Below, piece after piece: positions 18,301 through 25,961 of a DNA stretch of 64,000 bases. Both the position numbers and the translations under genes were made by a program. The DNA lies in contig JANCIK010000002.1 of the NCBI GenBank assembly GCA_028532985.1, positions 3,162,001-3,226,000 on the forward strand. Reading direction: 5' to 3'. Position 1 is the first letter of the stretch, and every line of letters starts with the position of its first letter. The notes under the pieces are model-generated. The model saw only the letters and a program-made list of their open reading frames with translations. It was not told the DNA's origin and made no database searches. Origin of the DNA: Stropharia rugosoannulata. Lineage: Eukaryota; Basidiomycota; Agaricomycetes; Agaricales; Strophariaceae.

Positions 18301-19933
18301 TTTGCATGAGACTACATAGAGCATGCAAATTTTCCAAGCTCTCTAAATCTTCTGCATCCCCCATTACCTTTATCAAGGACTTGATGTAATCCTATCAATG
18401 GATGAACAAGCAACGTGTTAAGATCAGCTACTGAACATATATCATGACATTTGACGACAATATGAATAGTAAGGCGATTGTATTGTAGTAGGTTAACAGA
18501 CCGAACCAACAATGCATTATCCAAGAGAAGAAAACATAGTCGTGATAGACAATATCGCAACAGAATCCGAGCAACGTTACGAAAACGGGGTAAGAACTCA
18601 CTTTACTCTGTATGTATTCACATATGCGCTCTTTCACCGTCTGTGTTCGCGACAACGCTTTGATTGCTCTCTCTATTTCACTGATGATCCCTAGCTGAGG
18701 CGGAGGGAGGTGACCTGAACGAATAATACTACTGCTCGTCACGGAAAGTTCTGGTCCTAATAGGGGGGATAGATTTTCTACGAATGTTAATCGAACACTG
18801 AAAAGCGGGGCAACCTGAGACGAACCAGTGGCATTCATATGCTTTTGAACTTCGAGAATAAAGTTCCAAACTTCGGCACATCCCTCGGGGTCTTGAAAAC
18901 TCAGTGCATAGTCTACGCCGTCGGGTTCGGTCCAAACGATAAGGGTGTCTAAAACATAAATAGATCAGCATCATCCAAATGGACAAACATATAAGATTAG
19001 TGACGCGTGCATTCCAACAGGGGCGGTAAAGTGGTCGCGTGCAGCTTTACAAGTACCATGGACGGCAGGGAGTCAAATATTCAATCAACAAACTTACCTT
19101 GCTGCCGTTGGTAAACGTCGTTGGAGCGAATGGCTGTTGATAGGATAACTTCATTGTAATTCCTTTCGGATCGTGCTATAAGTAGAGCTTCGTTGTTCTC
19201 TTCTGAGAATTGGCCAAAGCAGAAAGCGGTTCCTTGATCTATCCACCGCGAGCCTATCAGTTCGTAAACCTGACAAAGCAGGTAAGCATTTGAGGATATG
19301 CAGGACAATACGGGCAAGTGAGATGCGGGAAAGCAAGTACTGTTTGGAGATGTCACTGGATTCTGACGTGCTAGGCGAACGAGAAGAATCCTATGCCATC
19401 AAGAGCACATACAAATTACATTTACATACCTTCACGCGCTTCAATTCGTGATCGGAATCAGGTATCCAATCTTGCCCATCCTCATGTATCATGATACCCG
19501 CATCCCCTTCACCAACAGCCTGCTCCGGGACATGTTCAAGCAATTCAATCTGACCATTGACAGGTTCGTGTAAAACATCGTGTTCCTGCTTCACGTCTGA
19601 CGACTCTGCCACTTCTACGTCTCCAACTAAGGTTCCGTCCTTGTGGTGTTCCTCCAGAACTACTTCCGCACTTCGGACAGCTGCATTCTCCGTGCCGGTA
19701 TGTGACTGCGCACTCGGTGATAGAGACTCAGGTGGCTCGTTCTGAGATTGGATTGCTGGCTCTGTTACAGGGGAGGACTGATCTGTGGGTGTAGGGGCAT
19801 CGTGAAGTGACGACTGAGAATTAGAAATGGCGGTGGAACCAGCACCCGTCGTGTTAGCAGACGTAGCAGGGGAGATTTCAACAGACTGAACAGAGGATTC
19901 TGTATGTTGTATATCTTTAACCAGGCCGTTCAT
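15372..19933 (-). CDS. Protein phosphatase 4 regulatory subunit 3 (SMEK/Psy2)
   Basis: A regulatory subunit that targets the PP4 catalytic subunit to substrates in DNA damage and nutrient signalling. Exon 1 (19933-19430) encodes 168 disordered residues ending DHELKRVK. It is spliced in phase 0 to the EVH1/PH-like domain: VYELIGSRWIDQGTAFCFGQ, EALLIARSERNYNEVIL, YQRQQ|DTLIVWTEPDG. The SMK-1 and armadillo region follows, with HGLYEHILEDEVFYGVVG, FHQPIPMRDLNIKRKIHHTY and FNQIDIITYIQQD. The C-terminal part has MDHFYREPIAKLMLP and ends in an acidic, Ser-rich tail with basic motifs, probably nuclear localisation signals. The gene has about nine introns. The long N-terminal extension is unusual; homologues begin near the EVH1-like domain. 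Confidence 0.93.
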
Positions 19934-20319
19934 GGCCTGCAAGTGAAAGACGAGCCAATGGAGGGAAAGAGACGAGAAAAATGAGCGGAAAGTGACAGAG
20001 CAGCGCACACCGCCGGTTCAAGGGGCCGTGGGTAACTTTTCAGCCAAATAAACCTTCGGCCCGATGGCCCTCAACAACAAGCCAGTGCCTGCCAGTGCTT
20101 GCCAGTAACAACGCGTGCATCAATGAACGGCCCCGCAACGCGCCCAGAGTCTGTCGGCGTCCAAGGCAATACTAATACCCCTCATACTGTTAGGTTAAGG
20201 CTGTGTACAATGATGTGGAACGAAAGCAGCGAATACCAGAAGCGACCCGGCCATTACGTCAGCATGTGAAAAAATCCAACGGAGTGTATGACGCTTGCCC
20301 GTTGAACTCGACATCCATC
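19934..20319. promoter_or_regulatory. Divergent promoter, PP4R3 / TOM20
   Basis: A 386-bp divergent interval. It holds three tandem copies of a GCCAGT-based decamer at 20081-20106, noted separately. No TATA box is seen. Confidence 0.45.
20081..20106 (+). repeat. Three tandem GCCAGT decamers
   Basis: GCCAGTGCCT, GCCAGTGCTT and GCCAGT occur at exact 10-bp spacing, so the repeats face the same side of the helix. They lie between two divergent genes and could bind a regulator; that is inference. Confidence 0.5.
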
Positions 20320-21088
20320 ATGGACAACAGGTCCGCCACATTCCTCACTGCCGCGGCGGTCACCGTCGCCGCTGGGATTGCTGCATACGCGGTCTACTTT
20401 GACTACAAGCGCAGGAATGACACCGAATTCCGCAGAAAACTCAGTATGTGTTACCCGTGTCGTTTCGCGAATTTCACCGACCTCTTTGTAGAAAAGGAGA
20501 AGAAACGCGTCCAAAAAGTTGTGGCCGAGACCAAACAAAACGAGGCTTCTTCAGGAATTACCAGCATAACCCCGGCCAGCCTTCGTGAGGCTCTTCAACA
20601 AATTCGAACCGAGCCCACTCCGTCAACGCCCGAGGAACAAGAACAGTATTTCATGAACCAAGTGGCCAATGGTGAAAGACTTGCCCTTGAAGGTAGTATC
20701 CTCCAGAACATGTTATCTAGCCTTTCCTGATTTGCGTTCAGGTCCTGGTTCATACTTGCCTGCTGCCATGGCGTTCTTCCGTGCTCTACGAGTGTATCCC
20801 TCCCCGGTAGAGCTCATCGTGATCTATGAAAAGACAATTATCGAACCAGTGTTCAAGGTGCGGCTCGCTCAAATTTTGAAACTAATGTATTTTAAATGGG
20901 TATTCTAGTTGATTATGGATTTGACCCAGCTGGACGTAAGTGATATTCCTTCGTCATTGGCGGAAAGCACGGGGCTCGACAGTGAATCTAGTCCGAGCAG
21001 GGGACCTCCCTCTGAGACCTCGTCACAGGAATGGGATAGGGTCACAGATCCAGAGTCTCATACCCCTGTGCGCGACCTGGAGGGTTAG
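20320..21088 (+). CDS. TOM20: TOM20 mitochondrial import receptor (own-stop isoform)
   Basis: The outer-membrane receptor that binds presequences and passes them to the TOM pore. There are four exons: 20320-20443, 20492-20692, 20742-20857 and 20909-21088, giving 206 residues. Residues 5-25 form the N-terminal membrane anchor (FLTAAAVTVAAGIAAYAVYF), followed by a basic cytosolic linker (KKEKKRVQKV). The receptor domain contains NQVANGERLALEGPGSYLPA and ALRVYPSPVELIVIYEKT, ending EPVFKLIMDLTQLDV. A 50-residue Ser/Glu/Asp-rich tail then runs to the TAG at 21086, like the acidic tail of fungal Tom20. A perfect donor (GAC|GTAAGT) sits at 20936 just before the tail, offering the alternative fusion described in the next entry. 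Confidence 0.9.
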
Positions 21089-22725
21089 CAGGAGATATCC
21101 TGCGCGTGATGGGGGGCAATCAGAAGAGATGCGTGGCACTGTAGGCAGCAATATGAATTATCTCTCTCTCTCATCTTTTATATCCATTTGCTTCTCTTCG
21201 CGCCGTTTGCAACACGTGTTCTAATATATTTGTTGCATATCCGTCTTTCGATTCTGCTTCCAGGTGAAACATCGCGTTGAAGGTGAGTTGCGAAAGATCT
21301 TTGGACAGCTGTCAGCACTTAGTAATCAATCCACTGCGTTTATCTCGCAGCTTACTATGACTTTTTCCCGCCAAAGCGGACGAATGTCTCCGTCGACATA
21401 CGAGAAACTTATCAGGGTCCCGGTGCTCGCCAAGTTCTTGTTGTAAATAAGGATTTCGCTGCTGGTGAAATTGTCTATAAGGTTAATATCTCGATACAAC
21501 TAGTATACTTAAGCTCAGTTCATCCACGCTATAGGAATTCCCCGTCGTCACTACTTTGGACGCCGACTTGCAAAACAAAGGAACATACTGCAACCAATGC
21601 CTCCGCCCCATCGAACCTGAAATGTCCCTACAATCGCCGAAAGACACTAGCACTTCAACCTTCCATCTCACATACTGCTCCAAGGCGTGCATGGTCTCAT
21701 CCAAAAAGCAGTCGCAATCGCTCTTGTTCACTTTGGACCCGGCTCTTCCTCCCGAGATACCATCCCCGCCCGCGTCTGCGGAATCCCAAGAAGTTCGCAA
21801 GGAAGCGCAGATTAAGTTTGCTGACTATATCAAATCCACCGGAAAGTCGCTGCCCCTACTCGTTGCCCGCTTCATCGCCCGTCAAGTGCAAGGGGAGACT
21901 CAGAAACTCGTCCAGGCCACCTCTCCTGGCAACCGTGCTACCCCCAGCGAGGACGATTACACGGATGCTGAAGCTGGCGCAGAGAAGTATGTACTCGCCG
22001 ATCACCTCGAACGTCTCCGCTACCTTGAAATGGTACCCAACAAGGAAGAGTCTGAGCTCTTAGTCAAGGTCCTGCAAACAGCTCTTCCTGGCCTCGAAGA
22101 ATTCATTACCTCCGAGAAATACGCGACACTCAGCGGAAAGATGGCCTACAATGCATTCGGCGTGTGCTATGGCGGAGGACGTGATGATAAGGCGCGTGTT
22201 CTTTTAATTCAATACTACGTGCTATGCCTATGACAATAGCACTGACTTCAAACCCAGCCCCAGCCCACCGTGCGCCCTGAAGATGTCGAGAAGACGCGCA
22301 CGCCTTACGGGACTCATCGCCAAATTGGCAGCGCGCTCTACACCGTGTCGTCGTATCTCACTCACTCCTGCCAACCTTCCGCGCGCCCTTCGTTCAGCTC
22401 CGGCACGTCCGAAATTTCCATCATCGCGAACAAAGACCTCAAGAAGGGCGACGTGCTCACTATTGCGTTTGTTGATGTAACCCAGCATCCGGATGAGTCG
22501 TCTGTTGATTGCCGCCGCAGGAGGCGTATTGAGCTTGCGCGCGGTTGGCGCTTTGCTTGTGGCTGCCCCCGCTGCGTTGAGGAGGGTAAAAACATGACGG
22601 TCGAAGAAAAAGCTGGCGCATCTGAGCAGCCTAAAGATGAGTCCAAAGTTGAGGATTCCGTCAGGAACTTCTCTCGGGGACAAGAAGCTGCACCCAATGA
22701 AGGGCAAACAAACAACATTGATTAA
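20320..22725 (+). CDS. TOM20-SET fusion isoform, predicted
   Basis: If the intron 20936-21263 is removed (GTAAGT donor, CTAAT branch site at 21221, CTTCCAG acceptor), the TOM20 body joins in phase to exons 21264-21282, 21351-21481, 21535-22197 and 22258-22725. The product would have 582 residues. The added part is a SET/SMYD-like lysine methyltransferase domain: GPGARQVLVVNKDFAAGEIV, then a Cys-rich insert (YCNQC...YCSKAC), then YLTHSCQPSARPSF, KKGDVLTIAFVD and the post-SET CGCPRC. The SET frame has no ATG before about residue 80 of that part, so it cannot make a complete domain by itself. Which isoform dominates cannot be read from the DNA. Confidence 0.8.
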
Positions 22726-23343: not shown

Positions 23344-25961
23344 TTATGCTAAACTTCTCCACATGCCCTCAGATGGTAGCTCGTCCCGTGCCTGAATGAT
23401 CTTCAATGCATGGTGACGCCCTTGTTCGCCGGACTCTCGATACGTCTGTGAAATCTCATCTTTGTCGGTTTCTTCTTCGTCTTCGTCTTCCAGTGGGAAA
23501 TCTAGGGCACCTGGGTCCATGGCACGTTTGCGATCCCGTTCGCTGTATAGCGCCTTCCGGATGGCTGTTGATGATAGCGGCTTATTATTTGCGCTCAAAC
23601 TTCCGACTTCCGTCGATTTTGGGCTGCCCTCCGGCATAGCACTTGGTGGTAAATATGACGATAAGTTCAATGGCTCCTTCGGCTTGAATCTGTTGACAAT
23701 GTTGACAGGCATAGATTGGACTATCTTCGTTGAGTCATCTATATAGTTGTTAGTATTAATAAATCATTAGAACTCTACTGGGACGCACCATTGTTCGATG
23801 CAACCTTTGTATATATGCTGATTGCGTTAGGTTTGGATTCATCCTCGCCTGCTTCCGACGAAGCTGAAGTCTCTGAGCTCTCCGCAGAGCTCCTTCGGCG
23901 AGTTAAATCCCGCCATGCTCTGCTGTCCGGCCGCCAAGCTCCTCGATGACTCGGGATATCCGCAGCGACCAATTTCATAAGTGCTGCCTCATTGTCGGTC
24001 AACGGTCTAGAAGATGGAGGGGGAGAAGAAGCTCGTCTTGCATCCGTATGCGCAGCACCGTTCAGCGCCCGCGATAAACTGGGAATCACGCTTTGAGAGA
24101 AAGAATCAACGCCAGGCTGGCTCCGCATTGGTCGAATATGCGACGGAGCAGGTAACGAAGACGGTCTCAATGCTGTGAAAGCTTCATGAGCTGCTTTGTT
24201 GAGATGGCGTCTGCTTGGACGTATAGGCTGGAATTTCGACTCCGCGAGTGGTAAATCCTGCGGAGAACCTGGTGCCTGAACGCCTTCTTCTGGCTGTTCT
24301 GGTTCATAAGGGAAGATCATAGTTTCTTCTTTCTCTTCAGGACTTTCGGTAGGGGTTGGTTCAACAAAAGTAACAACTTTCTTTGCCTTGTCACGGGCGC
24401 GAGAAGACTTCTGCGCCTCCAATTCTGAGGCCCCAGAAGAAGATGCAACAGCATTTGGGAGTATATTACTGGAAGTTTTGGCCATCGCGGGATGGTTTGC
24501 CGCCTCTTGTTGTTGTTGGTTTTTCATTATTTGTTCCTGAGCCTCCTTATATCGAGCCATATCTTCTGCAAGAGTAACGAAGTACTTGAACGAAGAAGCT
24601 GTGTTTCCATCCACAAGAATATTACCACTCTCTCTAGGAACGGTGGTACGAGTGGGTGTCGATCGGGCGAATACGCTTGTATTCGAACCCAGACTCTGAG
24701 AAGACGATTGTTCTTGCACCTCTCTGGGATGATAGAATTTCGAAGTAGCTAGCGAGGCTGATAAGGCTGAAACATGAGGGGAAGTTTTAGAAGGTCCGGA
24801 GCGCTGTGGAGAGAGCACTGGTTGTGGCGTAAAGTCACGAATGGTAACCGATGACGATAGGTGCGGTGTATTGCTAGGTTGAGATCGCGATAGTGACCTC
24901 CCTGTATTTGAGGAAACTCGTCGTTGAATTTCAAGCGAGTCGAGATTATGTTTGAAGTTCTTCCATAGAGCTGCCACCTGTTGTTTTAGGACCTCTTCCT
25001 CCCTTTCAAGTCCGGCTGTTTCGGCTTTTACGAAATCCGCGATGCGCCGCTCAGCAGCTGAACGAAGCTCTTGTGACTTTTTCGTTGCCAGGTCTGCCAA
25101 GTGAACAAATATTGGATGCGACGACGTCAAAGGGGGCGGTAAGAACAGCGGCTTTGCTCTTTCCAGATATTCTTTCGGAGGCGCATCTGTTTCTGGTGCT
25201 TCTGTCAACGAATCCTCCTTTTCTTCTATCGGGGATGGAAGTGGGGATGAGGTAGATTTCAAAGATAGAGAAAATGTAGAGGTATATGTTGGCGATTTCA
25301 GGAGTTCAAGCACTTTGTCCCCTCTCTGTATGGATGACCGGTCAGCTGATGTTAGAAGCACCATGCAAATGTAAGTTGAATAATCAAAAGTAGTGCAAAT
25401 CTCCAACATATGAATGCAGAGTGAAGAGTTTCGACGCATAAACAGCCATATGTAGCAGAGATACCCATCTACAGATCGTATAATGATAATTGGAAATTGA
25501 TTATTCCACTTACCAGGCTATCCTTATGCACATCGATCCATCCAGTCGCACTTTTCAGGATCTCGCGCTCAACCCAATCTTCCGAGGGCAACAAAGTGAC
25601 TCCGAACCCTTCCACTTCCGGAGAGACTATATTATGCACGCGATAAATTGGCAATGAGCAGAATAAACACGTCAACAAAATGAACCGCGAGTATCGCGAA
25701 GAGCCTGGTAGTGGTTCAGCCTTCGAGTGTAGCCTCACAGTTACCTGGGGGTGAGTCTAAAGATATATAAACCATGTTTTCGTTAAACAGCCTTCCTTGG
25801 ATAAGATATAAACTTACGACCGATATACCCCCTTCCTGGATGCATACTGGGGTATAATTTGGATCACGGGGGTAGTCTGGAGGTGAAGCAGACGACGGAG
25901 ATGCAGTAATGCGGACATTGAGGCACTTGCATGCGTACTGCTCAATGTTGTCAGTAGACAT
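23344..25961 (-). CDS. Uncharacterised protein with central coiled coil
   Basis: I do not recognise the family. The start is the ATG at 25961 (MSTDNIEQYACKCLNVRI), giving a short N-terminal part with a CxC pair that continues EGGISV. After one or more small exons comes a conserved-looking block, SPEVEGFGVTLLPSEDWVER, then SATGWIDVHKDSL. The middle has a strong helix (KKSQELRSAAERRIADFVKA and EREEEVLKQQVAALWKNF), likely a coiled coil. A long Ser/Pro-rich disordered region follows. The last exon starts after an intron near 23712-23790 and contains MPVNIVNRFKPKEPLNLSS, an acidic run EDEDEEETDKDE and the ending EGMWRSLA. The N- and C-terminal blocks look like conserved interaction motifs. The exact exon borders near 25700-25830 are uncertain. 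Confidence 0.7.

Follow-up and report, generated by a model that had tools for sequence, protein, structure and literature searches.

The TOM20 locus of Stropharia rugosoannulata probably encodes two outer-membrane proteins, which would have the same membrane anchor and receptor domain and differ in their cytosolic ends. The locus is a gene-like set of exons on the plus strand, at positions 20320-22725 of the window (the whole stretch of 64,000 nucleotides that was analysed). Splicing of a 328-nt intron at 20936-21263 would join exon 4 to exon 5 and fuse TOM20 to a split SET domain of the SMYD type. If the intron is left unspliced, its donor would be translated as Val-Ser and the receptor would end in a 50-residue tail. 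The sequence offers both reading paths, and each of the two ends is conserved in relatives; we infer that both forms are made in S. rugosoannulata. The original prediction, in which one intron gives a single locus two C-termini, draws support from relatives, in which both ends are conserved and probable cDNA contigs of both kinds occur.

Exons 1 to 4 encode a complete Tom20 with the Tom20/MAS20 receptor fold. Exon 1 (20320-20443) supplies the ATG and the membrane anchor. The MAS20 Pfam match (E 4.2e-39; 134 bits against a cut-off of 27) reaches residue 150 and supports exon 1 as well as exon 3 (20742-20857, receptor domain). Exon 2 (20492-20692) was placed by reading frame and coding score, and the part of exon 4 common to both products (20909-20935, LIMDLTQLD) by reading frame. 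After D156 the frame continues for 50 codons through a Ser/acidic tail to a TAG at 21086-21088, as had been predicted, and this alternative end (20936-21088) gives a short form of 206 aa and 22.9 kDa. The predicted phase-0 donor (20936-20941) is present as GAC/GTAAGT, and a cut at 20936 gives an in-phase join to exon 5 and then to exons 6 to 8, whose product matches the SET domain (E 6.8e-7). The candidate branch site CTAAT (21221-21225) and the acceptor ending at 21263 were also confirmed, but the direct link to the SET domain that had been drawn from them was not, as a 19-nt micro-exon and a 68-nt intron intervene. The micro-exon, exon 5 (21264-21282, VKHRVE), is followed by exon 6 (21351-21481), with YYDFFPP and the N-SET motif GPGARQ, by exon 7 (21535-22191, possibly to 22197), with a degenerate MYND (CxxC..CxxxC) and the I-SET, and by exon 8 (22258-22725), with the C-SET (LTHSCQP), the post-SET (CGCPRC) and the stop; the three SET motifs named in the prediction were thus all found. 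Because micro-exon 5 precedes a 68-nt intron, the neighbouring introns range from 48 to 68 nt rather than from 48 to 60 nt, while the 328 nt of the long intron stands. In the region 22189-22263 the last intron can start at 22192 with a GC donor or at 22198 with a weak GT donor; the two choices keep the frame and differ by two residues. The spliced fusion product has 580-582 aa; the 64.8 kDa computed for 582 aa and the size of the short form agree with the roughly 64 and 23 kDa expected earlier. MAS20 stands upstream of SET in one protein provided that the 328-nt intron is spliced. As the prediction also held, no ATG yields a complete SET domain, the first in-frame Met of exons 5-7 being at 21622, behind the N-SET. 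Two open frames on the minus strand flank the locus (23775-25517 and 19391-19945), and neither gives a Pfam match at E up to 0.01. The TOM20 locus was the sole MAS20 locus detected in the genome searched (48 Mb, 20 contigs), which ruled out a second TOM20 locus, and a repeat inside the 328-nt intron was ruled out by finding one genomic copy. The intron had zero matches in Rfam at E up to 1, and relatives sought in viral contigs and prokaryote genomes were not found there.

A query with the SET part found 336 proteins; our counts cover the 120 that were listed, and the closest among these come from Pholiota (81% identity) and Flammula (74%). The Tom20 receptor helix was recognised by pattern in 98 of the 120, in 72 without the tail motif and in 26 with it (28 keep the tail inside the fusion by a wider tail pattern). 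By the same pattern 22 are SET-only, and one of these, P0114, is a fragment starting inside the helix, which brings the fused proteins to 99. The helix is joined directly in 55 of the 99 by pattern and in five more by eye (P0114, P0117, P0163, P0167 and P0182); the remaining fused proteins retain the tail or have other insertions. Annotated TOM20-SET proteins come from many Agaricomycetes and also from Umbelopsis, Cokeromyces, Apophysomyces and Ambispora; in these last four genera the join lies at the same helix, and junction residues similar to those of exon 5 recur in relatives. Because it occurs in all these fungi the fusion looks ancestral, and the fused form, common to Mucoromycota-type fungi, would be the older one, with the tail arising within Basidiomycota.

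Transcript-like evidence in relatives comes from read assemblies (jgi, lgn, ena, src), the only source of 38 of the short-form matches, 37 of them on sized contigs. The anchor, receptor and tail occur in one ORF on 11 of the 25 contigs of up to 2.7 kb and on 0 of the 12 longer ones, where ORFs run into or out of introns; a complete short form is missing from the other 14 short contigs. Contig sizes and intact frames fit genomic DNA for the contigs above 2.7 kb and suggest that at least part of the shorter ones are spliced cDNA. Nine SET matches come from read assemblies. Five of them span the junction (P0114, P0136, P0148, P0161 and P0190), and all five skip the tail with an LD/VK or LN/VK join; P0148 fills 94% of its contig, leaving no room for introns. 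The ORFs of the other four (P0083, P0085, P0093 and P0181) stop short of the TOM20 junction, and some of these could be separate SET transcripts. In P0083, P0085 and P0181 the SET ORF starts at or after the junction on contigs of 1.75-2.3 kb with 576-1,058 nt outside the ORF, and these could be either transcripts that retain the long intron or separate SET transcripts. In the short form P0024, encoded on a 1,947-nt contig, the core shares 99.3% identity with that of the fused P0183 of Pisolithus microcarpus over 144 residues. Taken as probable cDNA, the short contigs suggest that both forms are transcribed in relatives.

At least 13 genomes have annotations that split the short form and the SET part into two adjacent genes, with consecutive locus tags in Tricholomella, Asterophora, Arthromyces, Tephrocybe, Blastosporella, two Termitomyces, Pleurotus djamor, Collybiopsis confluens and Leucocoprinus leucothites, and by same-sized contigs in Leucoagaricus, Paramarasmius and Psilocybe cubensis. 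This would fit two tandem genes, in which TOM20 ends at 21088, the SET part has its own first exon (for example from an ATG at 21129 spliced to 21264) and the fusions are read-through products comparable to the polycistronic transcripts of mushrooms. In the Agaricomycetes studied, polycistronic transcription has been reported to involve as many as 8% of transcribed genes, with a mean inter-ORF distance of 364 nt in Plicaturopsis (PMC4503453), and our two-gene models scored 49.8-51.9 against 52.5 for the fusion. The SET-only models, however, have no common N-terminus by eye, and P0085, P0112 and P0124 start with residues like those of exon 5. The donors of the candidate SET first exons score 3.03 and 2.07, against a 25th percentile of 3.83 for predicted donors, and the longer candidate has a coding score of -1.5. 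A pair of tandem genes is also at odds with the junction-spanning helix common to Umbelopsis and its like and with a TOM20 donor that leaves a conserved Val-Ser, and we therefore regard it as unlikely.

The tail itself is conserved. Its core (consensus GPPSETSSQEWDKVTDPG) is found in 51 of the 72 homologues returned by the short-form query (the motif in 50 by a narrower pattern), including Schizophyllum, Tulasnella, Sanghuangporus, Wallemia, Microstroma and many Agaricomycetes, and in 22 of another 28 proteins found with a Microstroma query; in the window it reads GPPSETSSQEWDRVTDP (21002-21052, Trp codon at 21032-21034). Several of the 21 homologues without the core are intron read-through or fusion fragments. 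GTAAGT in phase 0 encodes Val-Ser, and these two residues, with which the tail begins when the donor is not used, are themselves conserved. When the 51 tail-bearing rows were placed gap-free from the YPxP motif, counting rows put out of register by insertions as mismatches, the first tail residue was Val in 40 of the 51 and the second was Ser in 41, with entropies of 1.4 and 1.2 bits against 2.9-3.7 at the following ten positions. Comparison across homologues, proposed as a check on the original prediction, bore out the conservation of the tail and of the residues that the donor encodes. The smut-type Tom20s (P0193-P0210, P0212 and P0213) carry a tail motif, for example SSQEWDTLSATS, and have no SET domain. 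They mostly have IA or AE at the place of the donor; P0213 has D-V-S at the window's donor place, apparently by intron read-through.

Chance was assessed with a simple gene model of our own, self-trained on 200 kb (20 stretches of 10 kb) from the same genome; its early rounds overpredicted introns, and the final coding model excluded the studied window from training. An open 150-nt frame is found in 4,416 of 33,260 non-coding windows (about 13%), which would suit a locus that makes the fusion constitutively and holds the intronic tail ORF as a relic or by chance, never making it. The 72 listed models fused without a tail motif and the apparent ancestry of the fusion also speak for this explanation. 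Yet only 84 of the same windows (0.25%) are both open and as coding-like as the tail in the TOM20 frame, and an in-frame stop at least 51 codons past the donor occurs in 1 of 260 predicted introns. Residue-level conservation of the core in 51 of 72 homologues is not expected of a non-coding intron, and tail-bearing probable cDNA ORFs occur in relatives. A fusion-only locus is thus very improbable. Conservation is stronger evidence than these chance tests.

For the fusion, 0 of 2,862 non-coding windows of 267 nt contain a micro-exon that matches exon 5 in strength, and the donor of exon 5 (7.58) is the strongest of the locus and lies above the 95th percentile of predicted donors (7.05). The donor at 20936 scores 5.75, with the 75th percentile at 5.76, and one as strong is expected 0.027 times per 153 nt of exon interior. 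The branch site counts against dual output, as CTAAT lies 39 nt before the acceptor; among 110 CTRAY sites in predicted short introns, this distance falls at the 95th percentile (39.1). Rival gene structures scored 49.8-55.3, and the two highest (55.3 and 54.1) are fusions in which a donor inside the tail, at 21084 for the best score or at 21068, leaves the tail in place as a linker. The donor at 21084 (AGG/GTTAGC) overlaps the TOM20 stop and joins exon 6 in frame (21084-21350), which would give a tail-keeping fusion of 625 aa. The 26 listed models with the tail likewise speak for a linker. The tail is skipped, however, by all five junction-spanning probable cDNA ORFs, the tail donors of the public models vary from species to species, and the donors at 21068 and 21084 score 3.55 and 4.15, below that at 20936. 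We give a tail-keeping fusion little credence, as little as a locus that makes the fusion alone; the gene-model scores cannot rank the rival structures.

On the preferred reading of two alternative ends, the RNA of the short form could arise by retention of the intron or by cleavage and polyadenylation inside it. Intronic polyadenylation would be the likelier route, because a retained intron leaves the stop far upstream of further introns. The composition of polyadenylation signals did not discriminate.

The SET end had been proposed to be a methyltransferase facing the cytosol, and the residues at its active site do not support this in S. rugosoannulata. Its SET part has the SMYD fold, with Phe (codon at 22468-22470) where SMYD3 has its catalytic Tyr, Y239, and Thr for the Asn of NHSC (THSC, with His and Cys retained). 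SMYD3 Y239F and SMYD2 Y240F are reported to be inactive (PMC3136521, PMC1524980). It further differs from SMYD2 and SMYD3 in standing behind TOM20 and in missing the second MYND zinc pair; CxxC and CxxxC are all that is present of the finger, and the window protein has no zf-MYND match at E up to 1, while the fusions of Umbelopsis, Cokeromyces and Apophysomyces reach 20.8-22.5, below the zf-MYND cut-off of 22.7. As a control, 14 SET matches were taken from the same genome, two N-terminal halves and three cut by apparent introns were left out, and the nine readable loci all have the Tyr by eye. The locus L040 (G000:C10:2620480-2620752) is the only other protein-query match to the SET part in the genome; it keeps NHSC and the catalytic Tyr and resembles Set5.

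Of the 120 listed relatives, 72 have Tyr at the catalytic position, 45 have Phe and 3 have Trp. Parsimony on a single FastTree tree gives 17 Tyr/Phe changes, of which well-supported branches force 14-15. The Asn of NHSC is retained in 14 of the 120, the two GxG glycines in 46 and 45 (in a gappy part of the alignment), and the zinc cysteines and the NHSC His in 118 to 120. The four older fusions, from Umbelopsis, Cokeromyces, Apophysomyces and Ambispora, have the Tyr; those of Cokeromyces and Apophysomyces (P0214 and P0217) have lost HSC, and their SET part ends before the post-SET zinc site. The view that the change from Tyr to Phe alone makes the SET domain dead was softened in the light of the 72 Tyr-bearing relatives, in which methyltransferase activity is possible. 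For S. rugosoannulata these residues make a non-catalytic or weakly catalytic SMYD-fold scaffold likelier than an active methyltransferase. Because of the same Phe and Thr, the earlier idea that import capacity is coupled to methylation is left unsupported.

The tail is Ser/acidic, as the prediction had it, but it is more than a generic acidic tail, as it contains a conserved short motif. The core is [ED]-W-[DE]-x-[VLI], with V, L or I three residues after the Trp in 51 of 52 rows (the window and 51 homologues) and M in one, and W-D-R-V of the tail matches the pattern of the Atg8-interacting motif (AIM), W/Y-x-x-L/I/V, whose X positions are described as acidic (PMC8700587). The first X is acidic (D), while the second is R. 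Like Atg32 and Atg43, as described in the same source, the short form would be an outer-membrane protein with W-x-x-[LIV] in its expected cytosolic part and acidic residues flanking the Trp; unlike them it has R as the second X. Its binding of Atg8 is predicted. The tail core resembles a mitophagy motif, and with such a motif conserved where an outer-membrane protein is expected to face the cytosol, a role in mitophagy can be put to the test. Docking of the tail to another TOM subunit or to a chaperone is an alternative on a par with this role. We propose that splicing would trade a candidate autophagy-docking tail for a SET-fold head. According to a review, Magnaporthe and other filamentous fungi have no clear Atg32 orthologue (PMC7711908). 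A more far-reaching and doubtful view, which we offer tentatively, is that the intron chooses between an Atg8-docking tail and a largely non-catalytic SMYD-fold head, that the short Tom20 serves as a mitophagy receptor where Atg32 is absent, and that the locus is an intermediate of gene fission, with the two parts fused in Umbelopsis and its like, both outputs made in Agaricomycetes and the tail form alone in smuts.

The MAS20-SET architecture has been published as Group 25 of the fungal SET proteins, with none in Ascomycota (Ding et al. 2022, PMC9692433), and our fusion resembles that group in having MAS20 upstream of SET. The architecture was derived there from predicted proteins, and the main text of the paper makes no mention of Tom20, fusion or alternative splicing. 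Nor is Tom20 mentioned in the part consulted of a Ganoderma annotation paper (PMC11590231), and no report of dual TOM20/TOM20-SET output was found in the literature searched. In Plicaturopsis, 25.2% of transcribed loci were reported to show alternative splicing and 28.7% alternative polyadenylation (PMC4503453); both being common in mushrooms, the mechanism is known in kind, and the new part is the pairing of products. What sets the locus apart from the Tom20/MAS20 import receptor as known is the pair of alternative cytosolic C-termini.

Public annotations of the TOM20 locus should be read with caution, as they conflict: it is annotated as fused, split or tail-kept, sometimes within one genus, perhaps because one locus has two outputs. 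The core of the short form P0030 of Termitomyces Mn162, for example, is identical over 155 residues to that of the fused P0163 from another Termitomyces. If both forms are made, a single-copy import receptor would exist in two versions, and one splicing choice could reset recruitment at the mitochondrial surface. Through the conserved tail motif, the idea of a Basidiomycota mitophagy receptor could be tested directly and cheaply. The locus may also show how a gene splits, with an ancestral fusion gaining an alternative end and later losing the old one.
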